A DNA stretch of 64,000 bases from the NCBI RefSeq assembly GCF_016839145.1, contig NZ_CP069304.1, positions 62,001 through 126,000 on the forward strand, read 5' to 3'. The position numbers and the translations under genes are program-made. Position 1 is the first letter of the stretch, and each line of letters opens with the position of its first letter. Below, piece after piece: positions 26,903 through 54,931 of this stretch. The notes beneath the pieces are model-generated. The model was not told where the DNA came from. It saw only the letters and a program-made list of their open reading frames with translations, and made no database searches. The stretch is from Shinella sp. PSBB067 (GTDB lineage: Bacteria > Pseudomonadota > Alphaproteobacteria > Rhizobiales > Rhizobiaceae).

Positions 26903-26921
26903 CCGAAGAAGGAAACCGACC

Positions 26922-28850
26922 ATGGAAACCAAGGAAAACAAGGGATTGAGCCGCCGCGCGCTTTTCAGCGCGACAGCCGGCACGGCCGTTCTGGCCGGCA
27001 CGATGGGGCCGGCCGCGCTCGGCCTCGGCGTCGCGGGTCTTTCGACCCCCGCGCGTGCGGCGAGCGGGGCCGACGGCTCGGTCGCGCCCGGCAAGCTGGA
27101 CGACTACTACGGCTTCTGGTCCTCGGGCCAGACCGGCGAGATGCGCATCCTCGGCATCCCCTCGATGCGCGAACTGATGCGCGTTCCGGTGTTCAACCGC
27201 TGCTCGGCCACCGGCTGGGGCCAGACGAATGAATCGATCCACATCCACCAGCGCACGATGTCGGAGAAGACGAAGAAGCAGCTCGCCGCCAACGGCAAGA
27301 AGATCCACGACAACGGCGACCTGCACCACGTCCACATGTCCTTCACCGAAGGCAAGTACGACGGCCGCTTCCTCTTCATGAACGACAAGGCCAACACGCG
27401 CGTGGCGCGCGTTCGCTGCGACGTGATGAAGACCGACGCGATCCTGGAAATCCCCAACGCCAAGGGCATCCATGGCCTTCGTCCGCAGAAGTGGCCGCGC
27501 TCGAACTACGTCTTCTGCAACGGCGAGGACGAGGCACCGCTCATCAACGACGGCTCGACCATGAAGGACGTCTCGACCTATGTGAACATCTTCACCGCGG
27601 TCGATGCCGACAAGTGGGAAGTCGCCTGGCAGGTCAAGGTCTCCGGCAATCTCGACAACTGCGATGCCGACTACGAGGGCAAGTGGGCCTTCTCGACCAG
27701 CTACAACTCCGAAATGGGCATGACGCTGGAAGAGATGACCAAGTCCGAGATGGACCATGTCGTCGTCTTCAACCTCGCCGAGATCGAGAAGGCCATCGCC
27801 GCCGGGCAGTTCGAGGAGATCAACGGCGTCAAGGTGCTGGACGGCCGCAAGGAGGCGAAGTCCCTCTTCACCCGCTACATCCCGATCGCCAACAACCCGC
27901 ACGGCTGCAACATGGCGCCGGACAAGAAGCACCTGTGCATCAACGGCAAGCTCTCGCCGACCGTCACCGTGCTCGACGTCACCAAGTTCGACGCGATCTT
28001 CTACGAGAACGCCGAACCGCGCAGCGCCGTGGTGGCCGAACCGGAACTCGGCCTCGGCCCGCTCCACACGGCCTACGACGGCCGCGGCAACGCCTATACG
28101 TCGCTCTTCCTCGACAGCCAGGTGGTCAAGTGGAACATCGAGGAGGCCATCCGCGCCTATGCCGGCGAGAAGATCAACCCGATCAAGGACAAGCTGGACG
28201 TCCAGTACCAGCCCGGCCACCTGAAGACGGTGATGGGCGAGACGCTGGATGCCGCCAACGACTGGCTGGTGTGCCTGTGCAAGTTCTCCAAGGACCGCTT
28301 CCTCAATGTCGGCCCGCTGAAGCCGGAGAACGACCAGCTCATCGACATCTCCGGCGACAAGATGAAGCTGGTGCATGACGGCCCGAACTTCGCCGAGCCG
28401 CACGACGCCATCGCCGTTTCGCCCTCGATCCTGCCGAACATCCGCTCGGTCTGGGACCGCAACGACAAGATGTGGGCCGAGACGCGCAAGCAGGCCGAGG
28501 CCGACGGCGTCAATATCGACGAATGGACCGATGCCGTCATCCGCGACGGCAACAAGGTGCGCGTCTACATGACATCGGTCGCGCCGAACTACAGCCACGA
28601 GAGCTTCACGGTGAAGGAAGGCGACGAGGTCACCGTGATCGTGACCAACCTCGACGAGATCGACGACCTGACGCACGGCTTCACCATGGGCAACCACGGC
28701 GTTGCCATGGAGATCGGGCCGCAGCAGACGAGCTCGGTCACCTTCATCGCGGCCAATCCGGGCGTCTACTGGTACTATTGCCAGTGGTTCTGCCATGCCC
28801 TGCACATGGAGATGCGCGGCCGGATGTTCGTCGAACCGAAGGACGCCTGA
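26922..28850 (+). CDS. nosZ: nitrous oxide reductase NosZ
   Basis: A 642-residue periplasmic multicopper enzyme that reduces N2O to N2, the last step of denitrification. The twin-arginine signal ([12 protein letters not shown], Arg11-Arg12) marks the clade I, Tat-exported type. The beta-propeller holds the CuZ histidines (for example the segments [14 protein letters not shown] [18 protein letters not shown] and NPHGCNM). The C-terminal cupredoxin domain carries CuA: His585 in [10 protein letters not shown] and Cys620, Trp622, Cys624, His628 and Met631 in [14 protein letters not shown]. All key residues are present, so the enzyme should be active. It is 19 bp after nosR. Confidence 0.98.
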
Positions 28851-28853
28851 GCA

Positions 28854-30182
28854 ATGCGCCTGCCCGTCCTTCTCATCGGCCTCCTTCTCGCTTCGCCGCT
28901 TGCGGCGGCGGAGCGCGCGGTTGCGCCGGGGGCGGGCAGCCTTTCAGCCGCCATCGCCGGGGCGGACCCCGGCGATGTGCTTGTCCTCGGCGACGGGACC
29001 TATGCCGGCCCCGTCGTCATCGACCGCCCGCTCACCATCACCGGCCCGCGCGGGGCGGTGGTGGACGGTCTCGGCGAAGGCAGCGTGATGACGATCACCG
29101 CGCCCGACGTGACGCTGACCGGGTTCACCGTCACCGGTTCGGGGCACGTCAACCAGGATCTCGACGCGGGCGTGAAGATCCTCACGGGCGCCGATCGCGC
29201 CCGGATCGCAAGTCTGCTCGTCACCGGCAACATGCACGGCATCGACGTGCATGGCGGCCGCGACGCCGCCGTCACGGGCAACGAGATCGTCGGCATCAAG
29301 AGCCCGCGCATGAACGAGCGCGGCAACGGCATCTACGTCTGGAACAGCCCCGGCACGCTCTTGGAGGGCAATGCCATCCGCTACGGCCGCGACGGCATCT
29401 TCTCGAACGCCAGCGCGAACAGCGTCTATCGCGGCAACACCATGCGGGACCTGCGCTTCGCCGTGCATTTCATGTACACGCGCAATACCGAGGTTTCCGG
29501 CAATGTCTCGGTCGGCAACCATCTGGGCTTTGCCATCATGTTCTCCGACCGGGCGAAGATCCTCGACAATCTCAGCCTCGGCGACCGCGAGCACGGGCTG
29601 ATGCTGAACTACGCCAACAATGCCGACGTCAGCGGCAACCTGGTGCGCGGCGGCACGAAGAAGTGCCTCTTCATCTACAACGCCCACAAGAATCTCATCT
29701 GGAACAACCGTTTCGAGGGTTGCGGCATCGGCATCCATTTCACCGCCGGCTCGGAAAAGAACGTGCTGACCGGCAACGCCTTCATCGCCAACCGCGAGCA
29801 GGTGAAATATGTCGGCACGCGCAACATCGAATGGAGCCATGAGGGCCGGGGCAATTTCTGGTCCGATCATCCGGCCTTCGACCTCAACGGCGACGGCATC
29901 GCCGACAGCTTCTACCGCCCGAACGACCTGATGGACCAGATCCTCTGGTCGCAGCCGGCGGCAAGCCTCCTCATCGGCTCGCCCGCCGTGCAGCTCGTGC
30001 GCTGGAGCCAGCGGGACTTTCCCGCGACGCTTCCCGGCGGCGTGCGCGACAGCGCGCCGCTGATGAAGCCCCTGACCATATCCGTCCCGCCCGAAATCCT
30101 CGGCTATGAGGCCGAGGCCGCCGGGCGCTGGACCGAAGGAAATGATGATGACACCGACCCTGACGATCTCTCGGCTCACTAA
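28854..30182 (+). CDS. nosD: periplasmic copper-site maturation protein NosD
   Basis: A 442-residue exported protein with a signal peptide (1-19, cut near LAAAERA). It is built from repeated right-handed beta-helix (CASH/parallel beta-helix) coils, seen as recurring N/D-G-I motifs such as MHGIDVHGGRDAAVTGNEIVG. NosD works with the NosFY ABC complex to deliver copper from NosL and sulfur for the CuZ centre. It starts 3 bp after nosZ, and its end overlaps nosF by about 35 bp, so translation is coupled. An acidic C-terminal tail (EGNDDDTDPDD) is present. Confidence 0.95.
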   Translation: MRLPVLLIGLLLASPLAAAERAVAPGAGSLSAAIAGADPGDVLVLGDGTYAGPVVIDRPLTITGPRGAVVDGLGEGSVMTITAPDVTLTGFTVTGSGHVNQDLDAGVKILTGADRARIASLLVTGNMHGIDVHGGRDAAVTGNEIVGIKSPRMNERGNGIYVWNSPGTLLEGNAIRYGRDGIFSNASANSVYRGNTMRDLRFAVHFMYTRNTEVSGNVSVGNHLGFAIMFSDRAKILDNLSLGDREHGLMLNYANNADVSGNLVRGGTKKCLFIYNAHKNLIWNNRFEGCGIGIHFTAGSEKNVLTGNAFIANREQVKYVGTRNIEWSHEGRGNFWSDHPAFDLNGDGIADSFYRPNDLMDQILWSQPAASLLIGSPAVQLVRWSQRDFPATLPGGVRDSAPLMKPLTISVPPEILGYEAEAAGRWTEGNDDDTDPDDLSAH

Positions 30183-31047
30183 GCGCTTCGGCGACGTGGA
30201 GGCGCTGCAGGACGTCTCGCTGAGCCTCATGGCCGGAAAGCGCGCCGCATTGCTCGGCCACAACGGCGCCGGCAAGTCGACGATGATGAAGATCGTCCTC
30301 GGCCTCATCCCCTTCGACGGCGGCGAGGTATCCGTCTGCGGCGCGCGGCCGGGCTCGCCCGCCGCCAGGTCGCAGGTCGCCTACCTGCCGGAGAACGCCG
30401 CCTTCCACCCGGCCCTGACCGGGGAGGAGCAGCTCCGCCACTATCTCTCGCTGCGCGGCGAAAGCCCGCGCCAGGCGATGGAGCTCCTGTCGCGCGTCGG
30501 CCTTGCCCATGCCGCGCGGCGGCGCATCGGCACCTATTCCAAGGGCATGCGCCAGCGCGTCGGCCTTGCCCAGACGCTGATCGGCCGCCCCCGCCTCCTG
30601 GTCCTCGACGAGCCGACCTCCGGCCTCGACCCCGTCTCGCGGCGCGATTTCTACGACCTGCTCGACGGGCTTTCCGCCGAGGGGACCGCGATCCTCCTGT
30701 CCTCTCATGTCCTGACGGAGGTGGAGGCGCGCACCGACAGCATCCTCATCCTGTCCGGCGGCCGGCTGGTGGCGGAAGGCACGCTCGCCGAGCTGCGCGC
30801 CCGTGCGGCGCTGCCGGTCTCTCTCCTCGTCCGCCCGGCGCCCGACCATGCGGCCGCGCTCGCCGCGGCCTATCCGCAGGGCCTGCCCGGCGAGGACGGC
30901 GTCCTGCGCCTCACCTGCGCGCAGGCCGACAAGCTGCCGCTTCTTGCCGGCATCGCCGCGCTCGGGACGAAGATCGCCGATCTCGACGTCATCCCGCCGA
31001 GCCTCGAGGACATCTACAGCCATTTCAGCCGGAGGGACGGGCAATGA
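30148..31047 (+). CDS. nosF: ABC transporter ATPase NosF
   Basis: About 299 residues; the cytoplasmic ATPase of the NosDFY complex. Motifs are Walker A GHNGAGKST, signature YSKGMRQRVGLAQ (SKGMR replacing LSGGQ, as usual for NosF), Walker B LLVLDEPTSGLDP and switch His in SSHVLTEVE. Three successive ATGs occur at 30142, 30145 and 30148; the AAGGA ribosome site at 30136-30140 is best spaced from the last. The start lies inside nosD and the stop overlaps nosY (ATGA). Confidence 0.95.
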   Translation: MTPTLTISRLTKRFGDVEALQDVSLSLMAGKRAALLGHNGAGKSTMMKIVLGLIPFDGGEVSVCGARPGSPAARSQVAYLPENAAFHPALTGEEQLRHYLSLRGESPRQAMELLSRVGLAHAARRRIGTYSKGMRQRVGLAQTLIGRPRLLVLDEPTSGLDPVSRRDFYDLLDGLSAEGTAILLSSHVLTEVEARTDSILILSGGRLVAEGTLAELRARAALPVSLLVRPAPDHAAALAAAYPQGLPGEDGVLRLTCAQADKLPLLAGIAALGTKIADLDVIPPSLEDIYSHFSRRDGQ

Positions 31048-31865
31048 GCCGCATCCTCGCCACCGCGGTCTGCGAATTCCGCATCGCGCTCCGCAACCGC
31101 TGGGTCTCCATCGCCACCGGCATGATGGTGCTCTTCGCGCTGGTGCTGGCCGCCGCCGGCTCCGCGCCGACCGGCGAGGTCGGCGTCGACCGGCTCTCGG
31201 TGACCGTCGCGTCCCTGACCTCGCTCGCCGTCTATCTGGTGCCGCTGCTGGCGCTGCTGATGAGCTTCGATGCGGTGGCGGGCGAGGTGGAGCGCGGCAC
31301 GCTGCCGCTGCTTCTCACCTATCCCGTCTCGCGCCTGCAGATCCTTCTCGGCAAGCTCCTGGCGCATCTGGCGATCCTCGGCCTTGCCGCGACGCTCGGC
31401 TATGGCGCGGCCGCGCTGGTGGCCGTCTGGACCGACCCGGCCGCGGTCGAGGGGCTCGGCGCGCTCTGGCGGCTGATCTGGTCGTCGGTCGTGCTCGGCG
31501 CGACCTTCCTCGGCGCGGGCTATGCGCTCTCGGCGCTCGCCCGCCGGCCTTCAGGTGCGGCGGGTCTGGCCATCGCCCTGTGGCTTGCCGCCGTGGTGCT
31601 CTACGACCTTGCGCTTCTCGCGCTGATCGTCACCGACGGCGGCGGGGCCTTCACCACGCAGGCGCTGCCCGTGGCCCTGCTCGCCAACCCGGCCGATGCC
31701 TTCCGCGTCTTCAATCTCTCCGCCGCGCAGGCCGTCGCGGCGGCCGGCGGCATCGGCGGGGCGGCGGGGGCCATACCGCTCTGGCAATCGGCGGCCTCGC
31801 TCCTTGTCTGGCCGCTCGCCGCCGTCGCGCTCGCTGTCGCCGCCTTCCGGAGGGTGACGCCATGA
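31044..31865 (+). CDS. nosY: ABC transporter permease NosY
   Basis: A 273-residue inner-membrane protein with six hydrophobic segments, starting after a short amphipathic N-terminus. The segment AGEVERGTLPLLLTYPVSRLQILLGKLLAH is the conserved cytoplasmic coupling region of ABC-2-type permeases of the NosY family. It anchors NosD in the periplasm and NosF in the cytosol for N2O reductase maturation. ATGA overlaps couple it to nosF before and nosL after. Confidence 0.95.
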   Translation: MSRILATAVCEFRIALRNRWVSIATGMMVLFALVLAAAGSAPTGEVGVDRLSVTVASLTSLAVYLVPLLALLMSFDAVAGEVERGTLPLLLTYPVSRLQILLGKLLAHLAILGLAATLGYGAAALVAVWTDPAAVEGLGALWRLIWSSVVLGATFLGAGYALSALARRPSGAAGLAIALWLAAVVLYDLALLALIVTDGGGAFTTQALPVALLANPADAFRVFNLSAAQAVAAAGGIGGAAGAIPLWQSAASLLVWPLAAVALAVAAFRRVTP

Positions 31866-32443
31866 GGGTGCCTTTCCGCCATGCCGCGTTCCTCGCGGCG
31901 CTGACGCTGCTGTCCGCCTGCAAGGAGGACGTGGCGCAGACCTACAAGCCGCAGGAGATGACGCCCGAGACGCTCGGCCACTACTGCCAGATGAACCTGC
32001 TGGAGCATCCCGGCCCCAAGGCGCAGGTCTTCCTCGAGGGCAATGCGGCGCCGCTGTTCTTCAGCCAGGTGCGCGACGCCATCGCCTATACCCGCGCGCC
32101 CGAGCAGGTCGCGCCGATCGTCGCCGTCTATGTCAACGACATGGGCGCGGCCGGCGCGACATGGGAAGAACCCGGCAAGGGCAACTGGATCGCCGCCGAC
32201 AAGGCCTTCTACGTGGTCGGCTCCGCCCGGCAGGGCGGCATGGGCGCGCCGGAGACCGTGCCCTTCTCCAATCGGGAACGGGCGGCGGCCTTTGCGCTTG
32301 TGGAGGGCGGGCGCGTGCTGGCGCTTGCCGATATTACCGATGCCATGGTCCTGACGCCGGTGGAGACCGGCGCGGTGCCCGAGCCCGACGACGCCGACTA
32401 TCTCGGCCGTCTGCGCGCCTTGCCCCATCCAGCCGGAGAATGA
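31862..32443 (+). CDS. nosL: copper chaperone lipoprotein NosL
   Basis: A 193-residue periplasmic lipoprotein that binds Cu(I) and passes it to NosD for the CuZ site. The lipobox is LLSAC with Cys20. The copper motif C-x-M is visible as HYCQMNLLEHPGPKAQVFL. The region GNWIAADKAFYVVGSARQGGMGAPETVPFS holds further Met and aromatic residues typical of the family. It overlaps nosY by 4 bp and is followed 4 bp later by nosX. Confidence 0.94.
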   Translation: MRVPFRHAAFLAALTLLSACKEDVAQTYKPQEMTPETLGHYCQMNLLEHPGPKAQVFLEGNAAPLFFSQVRDAIAYTRAPEQVAPIVAVYVNDMGAAGATWEEPGKGNWIAADKAFYVVGSARQGGMGAPETVPFSNRERAAAFALVEGGRVLALADITDAMVLTPVETGAVPEPDDADYLGRLRALPHPAGE

Positions 32444-32447
32444 CCCG

Positions 32448-33359
32448 ATGATGCTGACCCGCCGCCGCCTGATCGCCATTTCCGCCGTGCTGGCCGTGCT
32501 GCCCGCCGTCGCGCGCGCCAATCCCGCGGCCGCCCGCCTTTGGACCGGGCAGGCGCTCGGCGCGCGCGCCTCGATCCGGCTCGTCCATCCGGACGGCGAG
32601 GCTGTCGCCGCCCGCGTCATGGCCGAGATCGACCGGCTGGAGAACATCCTCAGCCTCTACCGTCCCGCCAGCGCCCTGTCGCGGCTCAACCGGGAGGGGC
32701 ATCTTTCCGCTCCGCCCTTCGAGCTGCTGGAATGCCTGTCGCTGGCCGGCGCCGTGCACCATGCGAGCGGCGGGCTTTTCGACCCGACGGTGCAGCCGCT
32801 GTGGGCGCTATGGGCGCAGGCCGCCGCCGACGGAACGCGGCCCGACGCCGGGGCGCTGGAGCGCTTGCGGCGCAAGACCGGCTGGGACAAGGTGGAGATG
32901 GATGCGGCCGCGATCACCCTTCGCGCCGGTACGGCGCTGACGCTGAACGGGATCGGCCAGGGCTATGTCGCCGACCGGGTGGCCGCGCTGCTGGAGGCCG
33001 AGGGCCTCACCGACATCCTGATCGACACCGGCGAACTGCGCGCGCTCGGCGGCAGGCCGGAGGGCGGCGGATGGCCGGTCCGGCTGGAAACGGGCGAGCG
33101 CCTTGGGCTGCGCCAGCGGGCGCTTGCCACCTCCGCCGCGCTCGGCACGACATTCGACCAGGCCGGAAGGGACGGCCATATCCTCCATCCGAAGACGGGG
33201 ATGCCGGCACCCGCAAGGTGGCGCGCCGTTTCGATCTCGGCGCCGTCCGCCGCCATCGCCGACGCGCTGGCCACGGCGGCCTGCCTGATGCCGGACAGGG
33301 ACGCGATCCTCGCGCTGGCCGGCCGCTTCGACGGCGCGCGGCTGGAAAACAGCCTCTAA
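32448..33359 (+). CDS. nosX: FAD:protein FMN transferase NosX (ApbE family)
   Basis: A 303-residue exported protein, with a twin-arginine-like signal (LTRRRLIAISAVLAVLPAVARA). It has the ApbE features: an early LENILSLYRPASALSRLNR, then FDPTVQPLWALW, TLNGIGQGYVADRVAALL and the DTGELRALG strand that carries metal and flavin ligands. It transfers FMN from FAD to the threonine of NosR. It closes the nos operon; the GGAG at 32435-32438 gives a 9-bp spacing to the first of two ATGs. Confidence 0.92.
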   Translation: MMLTRRRLIAISAVLAVLPAVARANPAAARLWTGQALGARASIRLVHPDGEAVAARVMAEIDRLENILSLYRPASALSRLNREGHLSAPPFELLECLSLAGAVHHASGGLFDPTVQPLWALWAQAAADGTRPDAGALERLRRKTGWDKVEMDAAAITLRAGTALTLNGIGQGYVADRVAALLEAEGLTDILIDTGELRALGGRPEGGGWPVRLETGERLGLRQRALATSAALGTTFDQAGRDGHILHPKTGMPAPARWRAVSISAPSAAIADALATAACLMPDRDAILALAGRFDGARLENSL

Positions 33360-37742: not shown

Positions 37743-37769
37743 GCGGCTTCCTGCGCATAAACATGTATG

Positions 37770-37792: not shown

Positions 37793-37808
37793 TTTGCGCC
37801 AGCGCAAA
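37793..37808. promoter_or_regulatory. NnrR-type (Crp/Fnr family) operator
   Basis: TTTGCGC-CA-GCGCAAA is a perfect palindrome with the core TTGCG-N4-CGCAA, the form described for NnrR, the NO-responsive regulator of alphaproteobacterial denitrification genes. It is centred 68 bp before the TonB receptor ATG. The last gene of the operon it precedes encodes NnrS, a typical NnrR-regulon member, which supports the assignment. Confidence 0.65.
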
Positions 37809-37868
37809 GAGCGGCCTTCGCCGGATATGCAATTCCCACCGCAAGGCAATCGGCGAGCGGGGGTTATC

Positions 37869-40013
37869 ATGGCGCGCAACGGTGGACTGGGCTTTCTGGC
37901 GGCATTCCTGCTGGCGGGCACGGCAACGGGGGTCTGGGCACAGTCGGCAACGCCCGGCTCGACCACGGTCCTCGACGCGATCGTGGTCGACGGCAACAGG
38001 TGGAGCGATACGGCCGAAAAGGCGCGGGAGCGGCTCGCCGCCATTCCCGGCGGCGTGGCGGCCATCGGCGGTGAGGACATGGCCGCGCGCGCGGTGCCGA
38101 CCCTTTCGGAGGCGCTGGCGCTGGTGCCCGGCGTCGTCGTGCAGCGCTTCTTCGGCGGCAACGACCAGCCGCGCGTGCAGATCCGCGGCTCCGGCCTGCA
38201 GCAGAACCCGGTCGAGCGCGGCATCCTCGTCCTCAGGGACGGCCTGCCGATCAACCGGGCGGACGGCTCCTACATCGTCGGCCTTGCCAATCCCGGCCAG
38301 TCGAGCCTGATCGAGGTCTATCGCGGCTATACCGCCAACCGCCTCGGCGCCAGCGTGCTCGGCGGGGCCATCAATTTCGCGTCGCCCGTGGAAGCGGGAA
38401 CGCGCCTGTCGGCCGGCGGCGGCAGCTTCGGCGCGGCGGAGGCTTCCGCAAGGACCGGCTTCGACACGGATCGCTTCGCCGGCAGCTTCTCCATCGACAG
38501 CAGCCGCCGCGGCGGCTTCCGCCAGCACAACGGCTCCCGCCGCACCAGCCTCGGCGGCACGGTCGAGGCCGCGCTCTCCGACCTCGTCACGACGCGCGCC
38601 TTCATCGGCTATACCGACCTCGGCTTCGACGTCTCCGGCCCGCTGACGCGGAGCGCGCTGGAGGCGGATCCGACGCAGGTCTCGCCCGGGCCGCCGACGA
38701 GCATGGGGCCCAATGTCGTCCGCGACAGGCCGCGCCGCGAGGCCAGCCAGTTCCTCGTCGGCTCGCGCACCTCGATCACCCTCGACAACCATCTCTTCGA
38801 CATCGGGCTCGGCTATACCTATACGAAGGACATGTTCCGCTTCCCGATCTCGAGCGGCGTGCGCCGCACCGAGGGCGGCGACCTGACGGGCCTCCTGCGC
38901 TATGCCTACCAGCCGGATGCGGACGCGCTCCTGCCGCTCTTCGAGACGACCGCGCAATATTCGCTCGGCTCGGCGGAGCGGACCTACAACATCAATCGCA
39001 TGGGCGCCGACGGGCCGGCCTTCTCGAAGAACGATCTCGACGCCACCACCCTGTCGCTCTCCGCCGGCCTCAACGTGCCGGTCGGCGCGGCGGTGACGAT
39101 CTCGCCCTCGCTGTCCTACACCCATGCGACGCGCGGCAACGACGATCTCTGGGGCGCGGCGACCCGCCCGCGGCTGAGCTTCCCGGGTGGCGTCGTCACC
39201 CAGTTCCCGGCGATCGATACGAGCTATGACCGCAGCTATGGCGGCTGGTCGCCGGCACTGGCGGCAAGCTGGCGGCCCGACGAGAGCAACATGCTCTTCG
39301 CCGCGATCAGCCGCAGCTTCGAGCCGCCGACCCATGACGACCTGCTCGGCACCACGGGCGGCACGCCCAATGCCTCGCCCACCGGCTTTTCCACGCCCGG
39401 CCTCGATGCCCAGACGGCAACCACGGTCGAGATCGGCTGGCGGGGCGATCACGATGCCTGGACGGTGGACGCCGTCGCCTACTATTCCTGGGTGGACAAC
39501 GAGCTTCTGAGCCTGCGCGACACCAGCGGCTCGCTTTTGGCGGCCTTCAATGCCGACCGGACGATCCATGCGGGGCTGGAGCTCGGCGTGACGGGCGAGA
39601 TCCTCGACGGGCTGACGGGCCGGCTCGCCTATACGTTCCAGGATTTCCGTTTCGACGGCGACGCGACGCGCGGCGACAACCGCCTTGCCGGCGCGCCGCG
39701 CCATGTGGTGCACCTCGCGCTGCAATATGCCGTGACGGAGGACTGGGACATCGGCGCGGCCCTGCAATGGGTTCCGGCGAAGACGCCCGTCGACAACATG
39801 AACACGCTTTATGCCGATCCCTATGCGGTGGTGGACCTCAAGACCGAATACCGCATCAACGAGGCCTTCAGCGTCTACGGCGCCGTTACCAACCTGTTCG
39901 ACAAGACCTATGCCTCCTCCACCCTGATCCTCGATCAGGCGACCCCGGGGCAGGCGGTCTACCTGCCGGGCGACGGCCGCGGCTTCTATGCCGGCATCAA
40001 GGCCCGCTTCTGA
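37869..40013 (+). CDS. TonB-dependent outer-membrane receptor (nnrS-linked)
   Basis: A 714-residue outer-membrane beta-barrel receptor. It has a signal peptide (1-23, ending VWA), a TonB-box-like TVLDAIVVDG at the mature N-terminus, a plug domain (about 60-165: PTLSEALALVPGVVVQRFFGGNDQPRVQIRG, then GILVLRDGLPINRADGS and GASVLGGAINF), and a barrel ending in ...GFYAGIKARF with a terminal Phe. I find no cysteine and few methionines, unlike copper receptor NosA. The ligand is unknown. It starts the operon with an ABC importer and NnrS, behind the NnrR-like site. Confidence 0.9.
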   Translation: MARNGGLGFLAAFLLAGTATGVWAQSATPGSTTVLDAIVVDGNRWSDTAEKARERLAAIPGGVAAIGGEDMAARAVPTLSEALALVPGVVVQRFFGGNDQPRVQIRGSGLQQNPVERGILVLRDGLPINRADGSYIVGLANPGQSSLIEVYRGYTANRLGASVLGGAINFASPVEAGTRLSAGGGSFGAAEASARTGFDTDRFAGSFSIDSSRRGGFRQHNGSRRTSLGGTVEAALSDLVTTRAFIGYTDLGFDVSGPLTRSALEADPTQVSPGPPTSMGPNVVRDRPRREASQFLVGSRTSITLDNHLFDIGLGYTYTKDMFRFPISSGVRRTEGGDLTGLLRYAYQPDADALLPLFETTAQYSLGSAERTYNINRMGADGPAFSKNDLDATTLSLSAGLNVPVGAAVTISPSLSYTHATRGNDDLWGAATRPRLSFPGGVVTQFPAIDTSYDRSYGGWSPALAASWRPDESNMLFAAISRSFEPPTHDDLLGTTGGTPNASPTGFSTPGLDAQTATTVEIGWRGDHDAWTVDAVAYYSWVDNELLSLRDTSGSLLAAFNADRTIHAGLELGVTGEILDGLTGRLAYTFQDFRFDGDATRGDNRLAGAPRHVVHLALQYAVTEDWDIGAALQWVPAKTPVDNMNTLYADPYAVVDLKTEYRINEAFSVYGAVTNLFDKTYASSTLILDQATPGQAVYLPGDGRGFYAGIKARF

Positions 40014-40028
40014 CGAAAGGACGACGAC

Positions 40029-41012
40029 ATGACCCTTCCTACCCGCCGTGACGTTCTCGCGGGCCTTTCCGCGCTTGCCGTCGCAACCCTTTCGGCGCCT
40101 TCGATCCTGAAGGCCGCCGCGCCGCTGACGCTGTACGGCCCGCCGGCTGCGCCCTCCGCCGTGCTTGCCCATGCGGTCAAGGCCGGCTTCCTGAAGGACG
40201 TCGCGCCCTCGGCGGTCTTCCGCGCCTGGAAGACGCCGGACGAGATGCGCGCCGCCGTCGCCTCCGGTTCGATGGGCGCGGTGGTGATGCCGAGCTACGC
40301 CGCCGCCAACCTGCACAACAGGGGCCTCGGCATCGGCCTCCTCAATGTCCTGACGACGGGCCTGCTCTACATCGTCTCCAAGGACGAGAGCCTGACGACG
40401 GTCGCCGGGCTGAAGGGCAGGACGCTCGCCCTGCCGTTCAAGAACGACATGCCGGATTTCGTGATGGCGCGGCTGCTGGCACAGGCCGGGCTGGGGCAGG
40501 GCGAGGTCTCGCTCGAATACACGGCCTCGCCGCCCGAGGCCGTCCAGCTTCTCCTGACCGGCCGCGCCGATGCCGCCCTCCTCAGCGAGCCGGCGGCGAC
40601 GGGCGTCATCATCAAGGCGAAGTCGCTGTTCATGACCGTCCACCGCGTCATCGACGTGCAGGCCGAATGGCGCTCCGTCGCCGGCACGGCGGAGATCCCC
40701 CAGGCCGGGCTCGCGCTGACGGGCGAGGTGCAGCAGGCACTCGGCAGGGACGGGACCAGCGCCCTGCAGAAGGCGATCGAGGCGGCGCTTGCCGATGCGC
40801 TCGCCGATCCCGGGGTGGCCGCCGATGCCGTCGCCGATGCCCTCGGCTTCCCGCCGGAGATCATCGCCGCCTCCTTCCCGACCAGCCATCTCAGCGCGAT
40901 CCCCGCCAGCGCGGCGCGCAGGACGCTGGAGGGCTTCTACGGCGTGCTGGCTGAGGCCAACCCGGCGATCATCGGCGGGAAGCTGCCGGGCGACGGATTC
41001 TACCTGGTGTGA
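40029..41012 (+). CDS. ABC transporter substrate-binding protein (NitT/TauT, NMT1/THI5-like)
   Basis: A 327-residue periplasmic binding protein with a twin-arginine-like signal (TRRDVLAGLSALAVATLSAPSILKA). Family features are APLTLYGPPAAPSAVLAHAVKAG, GLLYIVSKDESLTTVAGLKGRTLALPFKND, and SPPEAVQLLLTGRADAALLSEPAATG, which is typical of NMT1-like proteins that bind small anionic or heterocyclic ligands. It follows the TonB receptor by 15 bp and precedes the permease by 4 bp, so it probably accepts the ligand delivered by that receptor. The ligand is unknown. Confidence 0.88.
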   Translation: MTLPTRRDVLAGLSALAVATLSAPSILKAAAPLTLYGPPAAPSAVLAHAVKAGFLKDVAPSAVFRAWKTPDEMRAAVASGSMGAVVMPSYAAANLHNRGLGIGLLNVLTTGLLYIVSKDESLTTVAGLKGRTLALPFKNDMPDFVMARLLAQAGLGQGEVSLEYTASPPEAVQLLLTGRADAALLSEPAATGVIIKAKSLFMTVHRVIDVQAEWRSVAGTAEIPQAGLALTGEVQQALGRDGTSALQKAIEAALADALADPGVAADAVADALGFPPEIIAASFPTSHLSAIPASAARRTLEGFYGVLAEANPAIIGGKLPGDGFYLV

Positions 41013-41016
41013 TGCC

Positions 41017-41826
41017 ATGAGCCCCATCCTCGCCGGCCTCGGCTGGACGGGCCGCTATCTGTGGGCCGGCTGGGCAGGCCTTGCCGGCATCTTCTGCTTC
41101 CTCGCCGTCTGGCAGGCCGGGCACGAGATCTACGGCTCCTTCATCCTGCCGTCGCCGGCGGAAACCGCGGCGGCCATCGGCGCGCTCGTGACGCGGCCGG
41201 ACTTCTGGACGATCCTCGGGCAGAGCGCCGGCCGGGCGCTTTCCGGCTTTGCGCTCGCCGCCGTCATCGGCACGATGAGCGGGCTTCTCGCCGGCTATTC
41301 CTTCGCCGCCATGCGGCTGATGAAGCCGGTGGTCACGGTGATGCTCGGCGTGCCGCCGATCGGCTGGATCGTGCTCGCGCTGATCTGGTTTGGCTCCTCG
41401 GGCGGCACGGCCGTCATGACGGTCGTCATCGCCTCCGCGCCGCTCTCCTTCGCCGGCGCGCTCGAGGGCGTCGCCAAGCGCGACCGGCAGCTCGACATCA
41501 TGGCCCAGTCCTTCGGCGCGTCCTGGCTCTACCGGCTGCGCACCATCACGCTGCCGCACGTGCTTTCCTACCTCTTTCCCGCCTGGACGACGACGGCCGG
41601 CAGCGCCTGGAAGGTCACGGTCATGGCGGAGCTCCTGTCCAATTCCGGCGGCATCGGCGGGGAGCTGGCGACGGCGCGCGCGCTCTTCGACATCCCGCTC
41701 GTCACGGCGTGGCTCGCGATCACCGTCATGCTCGCGCTCGCCACCGATTACGGCGTGCTGCATGTGGTGCGCGAGGCCGCCGAGCGCTGGCGCAGCGCCG
41801 GCCTGCCCTGGGGGGTGAAGCGATGA
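41017..41826 (+). CDS. ABC transporter permease (NitT/TauT family)
   Basis: A 269-residue inner-membrane permease with six helices. It has the family's FILPSPAETAAAIGALV start and the EAA loop QSFGASWLYRLRTITLPHVLSYLFPAW. The substitution of Gly-Val-Pro-Pro-Ile-Gly-Trp (MLGVPPIGWIVLALIWFG) in helix 4 matches nitrate/taurine-type permeases. ATG at 41017 is the only start that gives a full first helix. It overlaps the ATPase gene by 4 bp. Confidence 0.9.
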   Translation: MSPILAGLGWTGRYLWAGWAGLAGIFCFLAVWQAGHEIYGSFILPSPAETAAAIGALVTRPDFWTILGQSAGRALSGFALAAVIGTMSGLLAGYSFAAMRLMKPVVTVMLGVPPIGWIVLALIWFGSSGGTAVMTVVIASAPLSFAGALEGVAKRDRQLDIMAQSFGASWLYRLRTITLPHVLSYLFPAWTTTAGSAWKVTVMAELLSNSGGIGGELATARALFDIPLVTAWLAITVMLALATDYGVLHVVREAAERWRSAGLPWGVKR

Positions 41827-42575
41827 CCGCAAGCACGGCGCTTTCCTTCTCCCGCGTCGGGCACGCCTTTCTCGGGCGCAGCCTCTTCGAGGACTTCGAC
41901 CTTTCCATCGGCAGGGGCGAGGCCGTCGCCCTGCTCGGCCCCTCCGGCAGCGGCAAGACGACCCTGCTGCAGATCGCCGCCGGGATCGTCGAGCCGGTCA
42001 AGGGCCGGGTGTCGCGGGGATACCGCCGCCAGGCGGTGGTGTTCCAGGAACCGCGCCTCCTGCCATGGATGACGCTGACGGACAATATCGCCTACGGCCT
42101 TTCCGCCCGCGGCGAGGGCAAGGCCGCGCGCCGCGCGACGGCCGAACGCCTCGCGCTCGCCGTCGGCCTGGAGGAGACCGACTTCGCGAAATATCCGGCC
42201 GAGCTTTCCGGCGGCATGCGGCAGCGGGCGAACGTGGCCCGGGCGCTGGCCGTCAATCCCGACATGCTGTTCCTCGACGAGCCCTTCAGCGCGACGGATG
42301 TCGGCCTGCGCCGGCACCTCCAGGACCTGCTGATCGCCGCCGCCCGGCAAGAGGGCTTCTCGGTGCTGCTGGTGACGCACGATCTCGCCGAGGCCGTCCG
42401 TATCGCGGACCGCATCGTCGTCCTCTCGGCCCGCAACGGGCGCATCGCCGCCAGCCGGGCGCTTGCCGGCCGGCCGGGCGAGCGCTCCGAGCGCGCCATT
42501 TTCGAGCAGGTGGAGGCATGGTCGCGCGATCCCCTTTTCGAGGAACTGTTTTCGGCGGCGGAGCGTCTGAGATGA
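41823..42575 (+). CDS. ABC transporter ATP-binding protein (NitT/TauT family)
   Basis: A 250-residue ATPase with Walker A GPSGSGKTT, Q-loop VFQEPRLLPWMT (the QEPRLLPW form of TauB/SsuB), signature LSGGMRQRANVARAL, Walker B MLFLDEPFSATD and switch His in LVTHDLAEAV. It pairs with the preceding permease. ATGA overlaps link it to both neighbours, the permease before and nnrS after, which argues that NnrS and the importer are made together. Confidence 0.92.
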   Translation: MTASTALSFSRVGHAFLGRSLFEDFDLSIGRGEAVALLGPSGSGKTTLLQIAAGIVEPVKGRVSRGYRRQAVVFQEPRLLPWMTLTDNIAYGLSARGEGKAARRATAERLALAVGLEETDFAKYPAELSGGMRQRANVARALAVNPDMLFLDEPFSATDVGLRRHLQDLLIAAARQEGFSVLLVTHDLAEAVRIADRIVVLSARNGRIAASRALAGRPGERSERAIFEQVEAWSRDPLFEELFSAAERLR

Positions 42576-43762
42576 GGAAACGGCCGATCCTTGCCGAAGC
42601 GCTGCGGCTGTTCTTTCCCCTTGCCGCCGCCCATGGCGCGCTGCTGCCCTTCCTGTGGGTGGTCGCCGGGGGCTACGGGCTGCCTTTCGCCGCCGACATC
42701 CCGCCCGCGCAATGGCATGCGCACGAGATGATCTTCGGCACCTACGGCATGGCGCTTGCCGGCTTCCTCGGCTCGGCCGTGCCGGAATGGACCGATACCC
42801 GGCCGGCACGGGGCCGCACGCTCGTCTGTCTTGCCGCCCTCTGGCTTCCCGCCCGGCTGGTCGGCGCGACGGGGGCGGATGCGCTGAGCCCGCTGGCCGG
42901 CCTCTTCGACCTTGCCTTCCTGCTCGTCCTCTCCCTCCTTCTCGGCCGGGCGATGCTGGCGCGCCGCACGACGAAGCATCTCGCCTTCCTGTTCTGGCTC
43001 CTCGCCTTTGCAGCCGTGGAAGCGGGCTTGCGCTATTGCTGGTTCGCCGGCGAGACCGCGCTGTCCGCCCGCCTGCTCGAAACCGCGCTTTGCATCTTCA
43101 TCGTCCTGTTTTCCCTCTCCGCCTCGCGCATCAATGTCGTGGTGATCAACCTGGCGCTCGACCCGACCGGCGAGACGACGCCCTACCGGCCGCATCCCGG
43201 GCGGCGTCACGCGGCGGCGGCGATGACGGTGCTCTACATGGCCGCCGCGCTGTTCCTGCCGGAAAGCGGCGTTTCGGCCTGGCTGGCGCTGGCGGCGGGC
43301 GCCGCCTTCCTCGACCGGCTCGCCGAATGGTTCATCGGCCGGGCGGCCTTCAAGACGGAGGTGGCGCTGCTCGCGCTCGGCAACGCCTTTGCCGGCGCGG
43401 GGTTCCTGGCGCTCGGGGCGACGCGGCTCGGCCTCGATCTTCCGCCGGTCGCAGGCCTGCACATGCTGTCGGTCGGGGCGCTCGGATGCGCGGTGATGGC
43501 GGTGTTCATCATCGCCGGCCTGCGGCATACCGGCCGCGACCTGGCGCATCTTCCCTGGCAGGCCCATGGCGCGGCCCTGCTGATGGCCGCCGCCGCGGCG
43601 GTGCGCGTGCTGCCGGAATTCGGCTTCGCCTCGGGCCTTGCCCCCGCGCACCATGCGGTGAGCGCCGTGCTCTGGGGGGCAAGCTTCGCCGTCTGGCTGC
43701 ACGGCTTCCTGCCGATGCTGGCCGCGCCGGGCATCGGGCAGGATACCGGCTGCGAGGGATGA
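42572..43762 (+). CDS. nnrS: NnrS family haem/copper membrane protein
   Basis: A 396-residue inner-membrane protein with about twelve hydrophobic segments. The conserved NnrS motifs are present: AQWHAHEMIFGTYGMALAGFLGSAVPEWT near the N-terminus with His ligands, SASRINVVVINLAL, GLHMLSVGALGCAVMAVFI and LWGASFAVWLHGFLPML. Family members bind haem and copper and relieve nitrosative stress. It is usually regulated by NnrR, fitting the palindrome at 37793-37808. Coupling by ATGA to an ABC importer is uncommon and noteworthy. Confidence 0.92.
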   Translation: MRKRPILAEALRLFFPLAAAHGALLPFLWVVAGGYGLPFAADIPPAQWHAHEMIFGTYGMALAGFLGSAVPEWTDTRPARGRTLVCLAALWLPARLVGATGADALSPLAGLFDLAFLLVLSLLLGRAMLARRTTKHLAFLFWLLAFAAVEAGLRYCWFAGETALSARLLETALCIFIVLFSLSASRINVVVINLALDPTGETTPYRPHPGRRHAAAAMTVLYMAAALFLPESGVSAWLALAAGAAFLDRLAEWFIGRAAFKTEVALLALGNAFAGAGFLALGATRLGLDLPPVAGLHMLSVGALGCAVMAVFIIAGLRHTGRDLAHLPWQAHGAALLMAAAAAVRVLPEFGFASGLAPAHHAVSAVLWGASFAVWLHGFLPMLAAPGIGQDTGCEG

Positions 43763-43886: not shown

Positions 43887-44714
43887 ATGGATATCGACCG
43901 GGCGCGCACCTTTCTTGAGATCGTCCATACCGGCAGCTTCCTCAAGGCCTCGGAACGGCTGCACATCACCCAGACGACGGTGAGCGCGCGCATCCGCACG
44001 CTGGAGGAGGCGCTGGGGCGCCGGCTTTTCGTGCGCACGCGCAACGGCGCGGCGCTGACGGCGGCGGGACGGGAGTTCGAGCGCTTCGCGCAATCCTTCG
44101 TGCAGGTATGGGAGCGGGCGCGCCAGCAACTCACCGTGCCGCCCGGCCGCACCGGCGTCGTCGCCATCGGCGGGGAGACGAGCCTGTGGAACCCGATGCT
44201 GGTCGACTGGCTCGTGTGGATGAAGGGAAACTGCCCGCAGGTCGCCATCCATGCCGAGGTCGGCATTCCCGACCAGTTGCTGGAGCAGTTGCGCACCGGC
44301 GTGCTCGACATCGCCGTGCTCTATGCGCCCAGGCTGATGGCGGGCTTCAAGGTCGAACTGGTGGAGGAGGAGCAGCTCGTGCTGGTGCGCAAGGCCGGCC
44401 TGCCCGCGGATGGCGGCGAGCCGGATTACGTCCATGTCGACTGGGGGCCGCAATTTGCCGGGCAGGGCGGCTTTGCCGAGCCGGCGCTCCAGGTCGGCTT
44501 CGGCCCGCTTGCCCTGCACTATATCCTGCGGGCCGGCGGCATGGGCTATTTCCGCAGGAAAACGCTCGCGCCCTATCTGGCGTCAGGCGCGCTCGAACGG
44601 GTCGAAGGCGCGCCCGAATTCACCTATCCGGCCTATGCCGTCTATCCGGAATCGGCCGCGGGCCGGCGCGCCGTGCAGGACGCGCTGGCCGGCCTGAAAA
44701 AGGTCGCGCGCTGA
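43887..44714 (+). CDS. LysR-family transcriptional regulator
   Basis: A 275-residue LysR protein. The N-terminal HTH reads ARTFLEIVHTGSFLKASERLHITQTTVSARIRTLEEALGRRLFVRTRNG, a standard LysR opening. The effector domain (about 90-275) is somewhat short. It is 124 bp after nnrS on the same strand with its own ribosome site (GGGGG before the ATG). Target genes are not obvious; neighbours on both sides are possible. It is convergent with rpsU. Confidence 0.9.
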   Translation: MDIDRARTFLEIVHTGSFLKASERLHITQTTVSARIRTLEEALGRRLFVRTRNGAALTAAGREFERFAQSFVQVWERARQQLTVPPGRTGVVAIGGETSLWNPMLVDWLVWMKGNCPQVAIHAEVGIPDQLLEQLRTGVLDIAVLYAPRLMAGFKVELVEEEQLVLVRKAGLPADGGEPDYVHVDWGPQFAGQGGFAEPALQVGFGPLALHYILRAGGMGYFRRKTLAPYLASGALERVEGAPEFTYPAYAVYPESAAGRRAVQDALAGLKKVAR

Positions 44715-52735: not shown

Positions 52736-54931
52736 ATGTGGGGCACTCTTTCGCTGTCGCTCGGGCGGCGGCGCATCATGCTATTGGCGGCGGCAAGCGT
52801 CTTTGCGCTGAATGCGCATGCGCAGGAGCGAACGCAATCGCCGGCGGGCACGACGCTGGAGGCGATCGTCGTCGAGGGCGGCGCGGGCGAGCGGGGCGAC
52901 GGGCCCGTCAAGGGCTATGTCGCGAAGAAGAGCCTTTCGGGCACCAAGACCGATACGCCGGTCGCAAGGACGCCGCAGACGATAAGCGTCGTGGCGAAGG
53001 ACCAGATCGAGGACCAGCACGTCCAGTCCGTCGCCGAGGCGCTGCGCTATACGCCCGGCGTCGTCACCGAGTATCGCGGCGCCTCGAACCTGCGCGACGA
53101 GCTCTTCGTGCGCGGCTTCTACTATGTGCCGAAATATCTTGACGGCCTGTTCCTCGGCGGAGACCTCTCCTATGCCAGGATCGATCCCTACCTTCTCGAA
53201 CGGGTGGAGTTGATCTCCGGCCCGGCCTCCGTGCTCTACGGCCAGGCCAATCCGGGCGGCATCGTCAACATGGTCAGCAAGAAGCCGACCGGCGAGCCCT
53301 TGCGCGCGGCCGAGCTCTCCGTCGGCACGGACCGCTCCATTTCCGCCGGCTTCGACATTTCCGACACGTTCGACGACGCCTTCGGCTACCGCCTTGCCGC
53401 CACGGGGCTTTCGCGCGACCTGCAGGAGGATTTCGCCAAAAGACGCTCGCTCGCCATCGCCCCGTCGTTCACCTGGTCGCCGGACGGGGGCACGTCGCTG
53501 ACGATCCTCGGCGGATACCAGAACGAGCCGGATGCCGGCTACCGCAACTTCCTCGACGCCGCCGGCACCGTCACGCCGATCCCCGGCTTCGGCTACGTGC
53601 CGCGCGACTTCTTCGTCTCCGACCCGAACTACGAACGCTCCGAGCGCGAGCAGGCCTGGATCGGCTACGAGTTCAGGCACGAGTTCAACGACAACCTGAC
53701 CTTCCGCCAGAATGCGCGCTACCTCCATCTCGACTGGCTGCACCACACGCTCGTCTACGGCAGCCTCAGCGCCGACCCGCTGACCGGCGCCAACACGGTC
53801 ATCAGCCGCTCGGCGAGCGGCGGCACGGACAACTGGGGCCAGTTCACCATCGACAACCAGATGGAGGCGACCTTCTCGACGGGTGCGGCGGAGCATACGC
53901 TGCTGGCCGGCGTGGACTACCAGTACCGAACGCGCGACTACCAGTGGGGCCGCGCGCCGGTGCCGAGCATCAACATCGCCGATCCGCACTATGGCGGCTT
54001 CAACTACGGCTCCGTGGTGCTGGCGACGTCGGACCTCCAGGCGGTCGATGCGCGCCAGACCGGCGTCTATCTTCAGGACCAGATGGAGATCGGCGGGCTG
54101 AACCTGCTCGCGGGCCTGCGCTACGACTGGGCGCAGACCGACATCGACGACCGGCTTGCCGCCAACAACGACCAGTCCTACGACGAGGGCGCCCTGACCT
54201 GGCGCGCCGGCGCGCTCTACGCCTTCGACAACGGCATCGCGCCCTATGTCAGCTACGCCACCTCCTTCGAGCCGGTGCTCTACCTGCCCCCGGCCGGCGC
54301 GCCCGCCTTCAAGCCGACGACCGCCGAACAGTTCGAGGTCGGCGTCAAATATGCGCCGGAAGGCTCGGATGTCCTGCTGACGGCGGCCTATTACGACCTG
54401 ACGCAGAACGACGTCGTCGGCAGCCAGTGGGTGGGCGGCGTTCCCGTCTACTCGCAGACCGGCAGGATCCGCAATCACGGCGTCGAGCTGTCCGCCCGCG
54501 CCGAGATCAATGACGGCCTGTCGCTGATCGCCGGCTACAGCTTCATCAGTTCGGTCGTGAAGGAATCGGTGACGGCCAGCGAGGTCGGCAGGATGCCGGC
54601 GCGCATTCCGCAGCACCAGGCCTCGCTCTGGGCGACCTATACGCTCGACGGCGGCGCGCTGGAGGGGCTGACGCTCGGCGGGGGCGTGCGCTATGTCGGC
54701 ACGAGCTGGGGCAACAACGCCAACACGTTCAAGGTGGGCGCCGTGACACTGTTCGACGCGATGGCATCCTACGATTTCGGCGCGCGCAATCCCGACCTGA
54801 AGGGCCTGTCGCTGCAGGTCAACGTCAAGAACATCGCGGACGAGCGCTACGTCGCCTCCTGCGCCAGCGCCTATGCCTGCTTCTACGGCGAGGGCCGCAG
54901 CATCGTCGCGACGCTGAAGAAGCAATGGTGA
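52736..54931 (+). CDS. TonB-dependent siderophore receptor (FhuA/FoxA-like)
   Basis: A 731-residue outer-membrane receptor for a ferric siderophore. It has a signal peptide (1-29, ending AHA), TonB box TLEAIVVEGG, the FhuA-type plug (TDTPVARTPQTISVVAKDQIEDQHVQSVAEALRYTPGVV, then LLERVELISGPASVLYGQANPGGIVNMVSKKP), and a barrel ending in a C-terminal Trp. The sequence of the plug is that of the hydroxamate-type group; the exact siderophore is not certain. It overlaps or abuts the esterase gene and lies behind the IRO box. Confidence 0.93.
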   Translation: MWGTLSLSLGRRRIMLLAAASVFALNAHAQERTQSPAGTTLEAIVVEGGAGERGDGPVKGYVAKKSLSGTKTDTPVARTPQTISVVAKDQIEDQHVQSVAEALRYTPGVVTEYRGASNLRDELFVRGFYYVPKYLDGLFLGGDLSYARIDPYLLERVELISGPASVLYGQANPGGIVNMVSKKPTGEPLRAAELSVGTDRSISAGFDISDTFDDAFGYRLAATGLSRDLQEDFAKRRSLAIAPSFTWSPDGGTSLTILGGYQNEPDAGYRNFLDAAGTVTPIPGFGYVPRDFFVSDPNYERSEREQAWIGYEFRHEFNDNLTFRQNARYLHLDWLHHTLVYGSLSADPLTGANTVISRSASGGTDNWGQFTIDNQMEATFSTGAAEHTLLAGVDYQYRTRDYQWGRAPVPSINIADPHYGGFNYGSVVLATSDLQAVDARQTGVYLQDQMEIGGLNLLAGLRYDWAQTDIDDRLAANNDQSYDEGALTWRAGALYAFDNGIAPYVSYATSFEPVLYLPPAGAPAFKPTTAEQFEVGVKYAPEGSDVLLTAAYYDLTQNDVVGSQWVGGVPVYSQTGRIRNHGVELSARAEINDGLSLIAGYSFISSVVKESVTASEVGRMPARIPQHQASLWATYTLDGGALEGLTLGGGVRYVGTSWGNNANTFKVGAVTLFDAMASYDFGARNPDLKGLSLQVNVKNIADERYVASCASAYACFYGEGRSIVATLKKQW

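Follow-up and report, generated by a model that had tools for sequence, protein, structure and literature searches.

A five-gene operon in a 64,000-nucleotide stretch of the Shinella sp. PSBB067 genome (contig NZ_CP069304.1; the whole stretch is called the window) appears to encode a metal-acquisition module that is regulated by nitric oxide (NO) or anoxia and ends in NnrS. Judging from sequence comparisons, we put the probability of this whole chain, up to "metal chelate", at roughly 0.55. With the cargo left unnamed, a conserved uptake module linked to NO or anoxia is strongly favoured.

In the proposed mechanism, the five genes would form one transcript and import a metal-bearing small molecule during denitrification. 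A NO-sensing activator of the FNR family, of the NnrR type, would bind a palindromic box upstream of the operon, and NO or anoxia would activate this box. The TonB-dependent receptor would move the chelate over the outer membrane, and the binding protein with its ATP-binding cassette (ABC) transporter would move it over the inner membrane, as their families and neighbours suggest. At times when NO ties metal up, the import would likely supply NosZ, NirK, NnrS and enzymes that contain haem. The composition is a new combination built from known kinds.

The operon and its conservation

A first-pass annotation of the window had described receptor, binding-protein, permease, ATPase and nnrS genes on the plus strand, and all five were confirmed there at 37869-43762. 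The first (37869..40013) encodes a TonB-dependent receptor of 714 amino acids (aa) with a plug (PF07715, 52 bits) and a barrel (PF00593, 155 bits), each above its Pfam cut-off. It is followed by a periplasmic binding protein of 327 aa (40029..41012), to which Pfam (PF12974, 37 bits, cut-off 27; PF13379, 23 bits, slightly below cut-off) and an AlphaFold2 model assign a NitT/TauT/PhnD-like fold. An ABC permease (41017..41826; PF00528), an ABC ATPase (41823..42575; PF00005) and NnrS (42572..43762; PF05940, 258 bits against a gathering cut-off of 28) complete the set. The ATGA overlaps that had been noted are both present, between permease and ATPase genes at 41823-41826 and between ATPase gene and nnrS at 42572-42575. 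The longest open reading frame (ORF) of the receptor begins at 37767 and would include the box; this start was rejected because the box would then fall inside the gene, and the likely start is the ATG at 37869, after which a signal-peptide-like stretch comes. The receptor holds 0 Cys and 7 Met in its 714 residues, as the annotation had remarked in general terms, and 224 of the 714 positions are at least 95% conserved in a 48-row alignment. In NnrS, H49, E52, H297 and H319 are kept in at least 95 of 96 operon-type rows. Of the other NnrS proteins in its own genome, the nirK-linked one shares only 28% identity with it and the C2 one 26%.

Relatives of the binding protein were collected from GTDB species genomes by a profile scan and one peptide pattern (358 in total), and the best 80 were kept with flanks of up to 9 kb. 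Outside annotated records, genes were called with a home-made codon-usage caller, which miscalled the window's binding-protein gene and some starts. Binding protein, permease, ATPase and NnrS are encoded in this order on the same strand in 78 of the 80 loci; the exceptions, L090 and L127, are truncated where their contigs stop. A TonB receptor is encoded anywhere in the locus in 48/80: 37 have it upstream in the orientation of the operon, 3 have it divergent and 8 inside or after the operon, with one locus in two classes. These loci are not independent, falling under 36 genus-or-higher labels, 24 of which have at least one boxed locus. The linkage of receptor and ABC genes to nnrS, which the annotation had proposed, exceeds chance. 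A lack of such linkage in other genomes, which the annotation had named as grounds for dropping its reading, is contradicted by these loci. Because of the linkage in 78/80 loci and the overlapping genes, NnrS may handle the same metal at the inner membrane.

The core extends to Campylobacterota and to Neisseria, with a weak NnrS match in Neisseria gonorrhoeae (28% identity, 57 bits). Among 18 loci from the plasmid collection (L056-L072, L206), 14 have NnrS, including those of Paracoccus, Martelella, Bartonella sp. HY328, Arcobacter cloacae and Nitratiruptor. Azospirillum brasilense Sp7 and Agrobacterium also belong to these 14; in the former, the receptor gene sits between those of permease and ATPase. 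The binding protein is 90% identical to its S. zoogloeoides counterpart, and the operon is patchy in the genus Shinella (4/21 genomes). Phylum searches found the receptor in 6 of 349 genomes at E 1e-60, own genome included, and the binding-protein profile in 10 of 349.

Denitrification-linked genes occur in the flanks of 35/80 loci, by a marker list without nirS. The nos genes adjoin the operon in Ensifer adhaerens, Pseudochelatococcus lubricantis and genome G195, and an Agrobacterium plasmid carries the operon between nor/ubi and nap genes. In Shinella sp. PSBB067, the window's replicon (685 kb) has a nos cluster at 24746-33359, 4.5 kb upstream of the operon, in which NosZ and NosD score above NCBIfam cut-offs and NosR scores 809 against 1000. 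A second replicon has hemN and nor-type genes, together with genes for a copper nitrite reductase and a CRP/FNR protein and a further nnrS. The CRP/FNR gene adjoins nirK and nirV (L015:6302-6997) and its product scores below the CRP/FNR equivalog cut-offs; the nor labels come from gene order and likeness, NorB and NorC having no NCBIfam match at 1e-20.

Other genes surround these loci. A LysR-type gene lies 3' of nnrS at window positions 43887-44714, and relatives of it (73-74% identity) are found ~2.5 kb after nnrS in Mesorhizobium (L123) and Aquamicrobium (L142). Window positions 52736-56529 encode an FhuA-like siderophore receptor, which shares 41% identity with E. coli FhuA in an alignment made for a receptor tree, and then an enterochelin-esterase-like protein. 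In four loci (L223, L224, L226 and L228, from G060, G097, G180 and G175), ABC sets without nnrS are divergent to two genes, which in L228, the sole one scanned, match [FeFe]-hydrogenase and NuoF-like domains.

The upstream box

The annotation had read a perfect palindrome upstream of the receptor, TTGCG-N4-CGCAA, as an NnrR-type site. The palindrome is present at 37793..37808 (TTTGCGCCAGCGCAAA, read as TTTGCGC-CA-GCGCAAA and assigned to neither strand), its centre 68.5 nt upstream of the receptor ATG, and we class it as an NnrR/FNR-type box from pattern scans, a twin copy and the boxes of relatives. The pattern TTGCGN4CGCAA has one exact occurrence in the window and 12 in the 5.77-Mb genome, against 2 for the reversed pattern. 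The full 16-mer TTTGCGCNNGCGCAAA has exactly 2 genome copies, where ~0.02 would be expected from base composition (assumed 63.5% GC). At 37793-37809, TTTGCGCCAGCGCAAAG agrees with ctTTGcgnnnncgCAAag, the published NnrR consensus (PMC1274295; cited papers are drawn on in excerpt throughout), and the box also fits the sites of the NnrR-dependent Bradyrhizobium genes norE (TTGCGTCGGCGCAA) and hemN2 (TTGCGCGAGCGCAA) (PMC6710368). In a 450-bp stretch at the operon start, ending 30 bp past the first aligned codon, TTGN8CAA occurs in 54/80 loci, against 9.9 in dinucleotide shuffles and 3/80 in a control stretch of coding sequence. The relatives' sites prefer TTGCGC or TTGATC, and GCGCAA. A chance box was rejected on the genome counts, the 16-mer expectation and the relatives' boxes.

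Elsewhere in this genome, a box with one mismatch is found in front of nirK/nnrS, of norC, of norE and of a hemerythrin gene (the last at L084:8207-8220, G000:C2:292206). A box-like site with two mismatches lies at L084:5120-5133 (G000:C2:289119), between ubiD-like and SCP2/U32-peptidase-like genes, labels that were assigned by reading. An NnrR-like box, TTTGCGTTTGCGCAAA, is found at L016:3986-4001 (G000:C2:486985-487000), ~125 nt upstream of a gene for subunit II of cytochrome c oxidase.

The second exact 16-mer copy (L014:9538-9553) lies between another nnrS and an operon encoding imelysin, a 175-aa protein, a multihaem cytochrome and an FTR1 permease. A box of the same type precedes the FTR1 operon of Shinella sp. 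HZN7 (TTGCGTTGGCGCAA), which directly follows nosZ, nosD, nosL and neighbours, and the imelysin operon of genome G610 (TTGCGCTGGCGCAA). In Nitratiruptor, genes for FTR1, a multihaem cytochrome, imelysin and ferritin adjoin the ABC-NnrS operon. Therefore, the two modules have a common box in Shinella and, in a distant phylum, a common small plasmid. The FTR1 gene was found in 2/21 genomes of the genus Shinella, and a phylum search with the multihaem cytochrome returned 2 of 299 genomes, own genome among the two. On the 5' side of the FTR1 operon (L014:6631-9514; G000:C2:242630-245513) are genes for a cytochrome P450 and for a protein with a molybdopterin-binding domain, as well as a third nnrS; a gene reading like P450 also stands 5' of the boxed imelysin operon of G610 (L237).

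Receptor and binding protein

In a quick receptor tree with SH-aLRT support only, for which suspected wrong-strand ORF rows and one second-receptor row were replaced or dropped, the window-like operon receptors form one clade (R1, SH-aLRT 100). R1 groups with receptors of Diaphorobacter, Pseudomonas, Providencia and Prevotella (SH-aLRT 92). The sister of that group comprises five DUF2946-linked receptors, some of them also encoded with PCuAC or DUF1775, together with a Methylocalor receptor and the L197 receptor, which is without such copper genes. The R1 group and its copper-linked sister are joined with a support of 100, and PqqU falls outside.

Membership of several known families was rejected. 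With 34 bits to TIGR01778 (cut-off 472), the receptor does not belong to NosA/OprC, as the annotation had said. A receptor outside NosA still leaves copper a plausible cargo, because other evidence points to it. The PqqU signature, Y99 (or F/W), R304 and R365 (PMC12124388), reads P, T, R in the window receptor, and all 23 R1 receptors have P, then T or S, then R, failing at the first two positions; the PqqU model NF041535 gives 108 bits against a cut-off of 1200. For SsuABC/TauABC/NrtABC, the NCBIfam scores are below cut-offs: the binding protein reaches 34 bits to the SsuA family (cut-off 163), the permease has no equivalog above cut-off (best 87 bits against 295), and the ATPase has none above cut-off among 25 of 186 NCBIfam families listed. 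The AlphaFold2 model of the binding protein (pLDDT 91.8) is nearest, among the Foldseek matches listed, to 3hn0 (molecule name: nitrate transport protein), and next to PqqT, to a Staphylococcus protein with bound zinc and to proteins that bind bicarbonate or nitrate.

Receptors of other loci were also inspected. Four OprC-like receptors (L188:8462-10351, L193:6029-7903, L200:12361-14337 and L201:12055-13977) may be without the usual plug, as their TIGR01778 match begins at model position 139-150. Diaphorobacter sp. HDW4A (L067:5918-18867) has a row of genes for a Crp/Fnr regulator, a TonB receptor, the binding protein, a cupin, another TonB receptor, a CobN-like chelatase (981 bits) and a third TonB receptor. 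On Providencia stuartii plasmid pPS1 (L203:212-12684), a receptor near the R1 clade lies beside a Crp/Fnr gene and an iron-type ABC importer, with a cupin, a SAM methyltransferase and a second ABC set.

Nature of the cargo and of the signal

By its sequence relationships, a copper chelate is tentatively the most likely cargo. The sister-clade receptors lie beside DUF2946, PCuAC and DUF1775 genes; in Bordetella, the leader CruR, which senses copper, is a DUF2946 protein (PMC9426467). A receptor beside the binding protein has TIGR01778 as its best NCBIfam match, with 179-236 bits, in four genomes (G256, G288, G388 and G473); in G473 the neighbour is a second, stand-alone binding-protein gene. 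The receptor of G072 scores 202 bits and has DUF2946 in front, on a contig that ends before any nnrS. In S. yambaruensis, DUF1775 and a CopC-CopD-YtkA fusion stand directly 5' of the receptor, and the 130-aa product of the gene before DUF1775 ends in RGPP and has no Pfam family match. NosZ, which is a copper enzyme, was found in 16 of 27 genomes with a binding-protein relative against 6 of 28 without (p 0.006), a comparison of all 27 non-own matching genomes with 28 of the 269 non-matching ones taken at roughly even steps. In addition, NnrS has been counted as a cuproprotein (PMC6769254).

Searches for copper and iron markers in the 80 loci by tblastn returned few hits (DUF1775 1, copper ATPase 2, HutW-like 7), and the HutW-like matches are probably relatives of HemN, since the strong ones among them overlap with it. 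All loci were scanned for the DUF2946 leader motif (CXXC ... RAPP); this motif scan found no DUF2946 leader ORF in the window, which sets the operon apart from those under CruR control. In Ensifer adhaerens (L096:3601-6457), a DUF2946-like ORF (CETC ... ARGPP; 19.8 bits against a cut-off of 23.7) precedes a Peripla_BP_2 and FecCD importer and lies divergent to the operon receptor.

Several observations weigh against a NO-linked copper module. The box is absent from 26/80 loci, and 32/80 are without a receptor in the examined stretch. NnrS is missing from four of the 18 plasmid loci (L067, L069, L071 and L206) and beside the binding-protein relatives of L195, L223, L224 and L226-L228. None of the five TIGR01778-matching receptors reaches the cut-off of 472. 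Counted by genus, the excess of NosZ is weak, several of the binding-protein relatives in that comparison are without NnrS, and NorB is not enriched (6/27 against 5/28, p 0.75). The R1 plug apex, FFGGNDQPR..IRGSG, is common to the Providencia receptor and differs from that of the copper clade, so that a common ligand with this clade is not established. No Cys, Met or His is conserved in the binding protein; because of this and its nearest folds, its ligand would belong among organic molecules, anions or chelates.

The remaining observations on that side concern iron. NO ties up cellular iron in dinitrosyl complexes, and the same module might import iron or haem, replacing NO-bound iron while NnrS shields it. 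The exact box before the imelysin-multihaem cytochrome-FTR1 operon provides an iron link, and the boxed operons of Shinella sp. HZN7 and G610 point the same way. Furthermore, PF10634 (P19-type), FTR1 and Fer4_5 genes follow nnrS in S. pollutisoli, and FTR1, imelysin and ferritin genes stand beside the operon in Nitratiruptor. ChaN follows nnrS in Arcobacter, and hutW and hutX lie near the operon in Cereibacter; both speak for iron or haem and against copper. The L189 and L194 receptors have haem-type best matches, and the Diaphorobacter receptor adjoins the CobN-like chelatase gene. However, the nearest receptor clades and the five related receptors indicate copper, and the iron genes lie mostly in separate transcription units. 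We regard iron or haem as a less likely cargo, one with somewhat under a one-in-three chance of being right.

The signal might also be low oxygen, acting via an FNR/FixK-type regulator, instead of NO acting via NnrR. Many relatives' boxes have TTGAT-type half-sites, and in Bradyrhizobium nnrR and nnrS are activated directly by FixK2 (PMC6710368). Yet both half-sites of the window box are TTGCG, the published NnrR form. Moreover, an Rrf2-family gene lies nearby in 10/26 boxless loci against 5/54 boxed loci (Fisher p 0.004). An NO sensor of the NsrR type could thus act as a replacement there, although each of three Rrf2 proteins examined fits NsrR about as well as RirA and stays under the cut-off of either. 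Low oxygen as the signal seems unlikely to us. The least probable cargo is one with no metal, whether an organic redox cofactor (PQQ, for example) or some other aromatic acid, given that the R1 receptors do not keep the PqqU signature, that PqqU falls outside the group holding the copper-linked clade, and that the likeness of the binding protein to PqqT is at fold level (28 bits).

Returning to the NO- or anoxia-regulated metal module, the annotation's interpretation, a dedicated uptake route over both membranes induced together with NnrS, is partly supported: its linkage, its conserved box and its non-NosA receptor stand, and it needs revision in that a receptor outside NosA may still serve copper. 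A more specific form, in which denitrifiers possess a NO-switched copper-chelate import line running from the receptor through a NitT-type ABC transporter to NnrS as inner-membrane copper acceptor or shield, is doubtful. If true, this would mean a new kind of copper import and a defined role of NnrS in metal supply.

Comparison with known systems

In the open-licence literature, to which our search was limited, no paper joining NnrS with this transporter was found. Few bacterial copper import routes have been described and the function of NnrS is unsettled (PMC6769254). A conserved NO-linked uptake operon ending in nnrS joins these two questions and makes both testable. Because N2O reduction is governed by the supply of copper, an answer would matter for the release of N2O from soils. 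By qRT-PCR, one Paracoccus nnrS gave 0.2 with iron and 0.3 without (PMC9409073), a gene that may or may not be the operon nnrS.

The nearest precedents each match a part of the operon. In Brucella melitensis, another denitrifying alphaproteobacterium, an NnrR-regulated nosA has been predicted (PMC1274295), likewise a TonB-type receptor gene under an NnrR-type site. NosA, however, is a copper receptor of another family, and the excerpted text of that study names no ABC genes or nnrS with it. The CruR (DUF2946)-BfrG copper operon of Bordetella pertussis also has a TonB receptor and suspected metal uptake (PMC9426467), and DUF2946-headed receptor operons form the sister clade of window-type receptors. 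In contrast to the window operon, it is copper-repressed via a leader ORF and continues with a PepSY protein, and no NitT-type ABC genes or nnrS appear in the excerpts of that report. Single nnrS genes beside nirK or nnrR belong to the same family and stand under an NnrR/FixK-type site, whereas the operon NnrS shares little identity with the nirK-linked protein. PqqU is the nearest solved receptor and PqqT is among the nearest solved binding-protein folds, but the signature residues and model score of PqqU are not matched by the window receptor. SsuABC, TauABC and NrtABC share the fold and gene types of the binding protein, permease and ATPase; the window proteins differ in scoring below the listed equivalog cut-offs, and the operon differs in placing a TonB receptor first and nnrS last.
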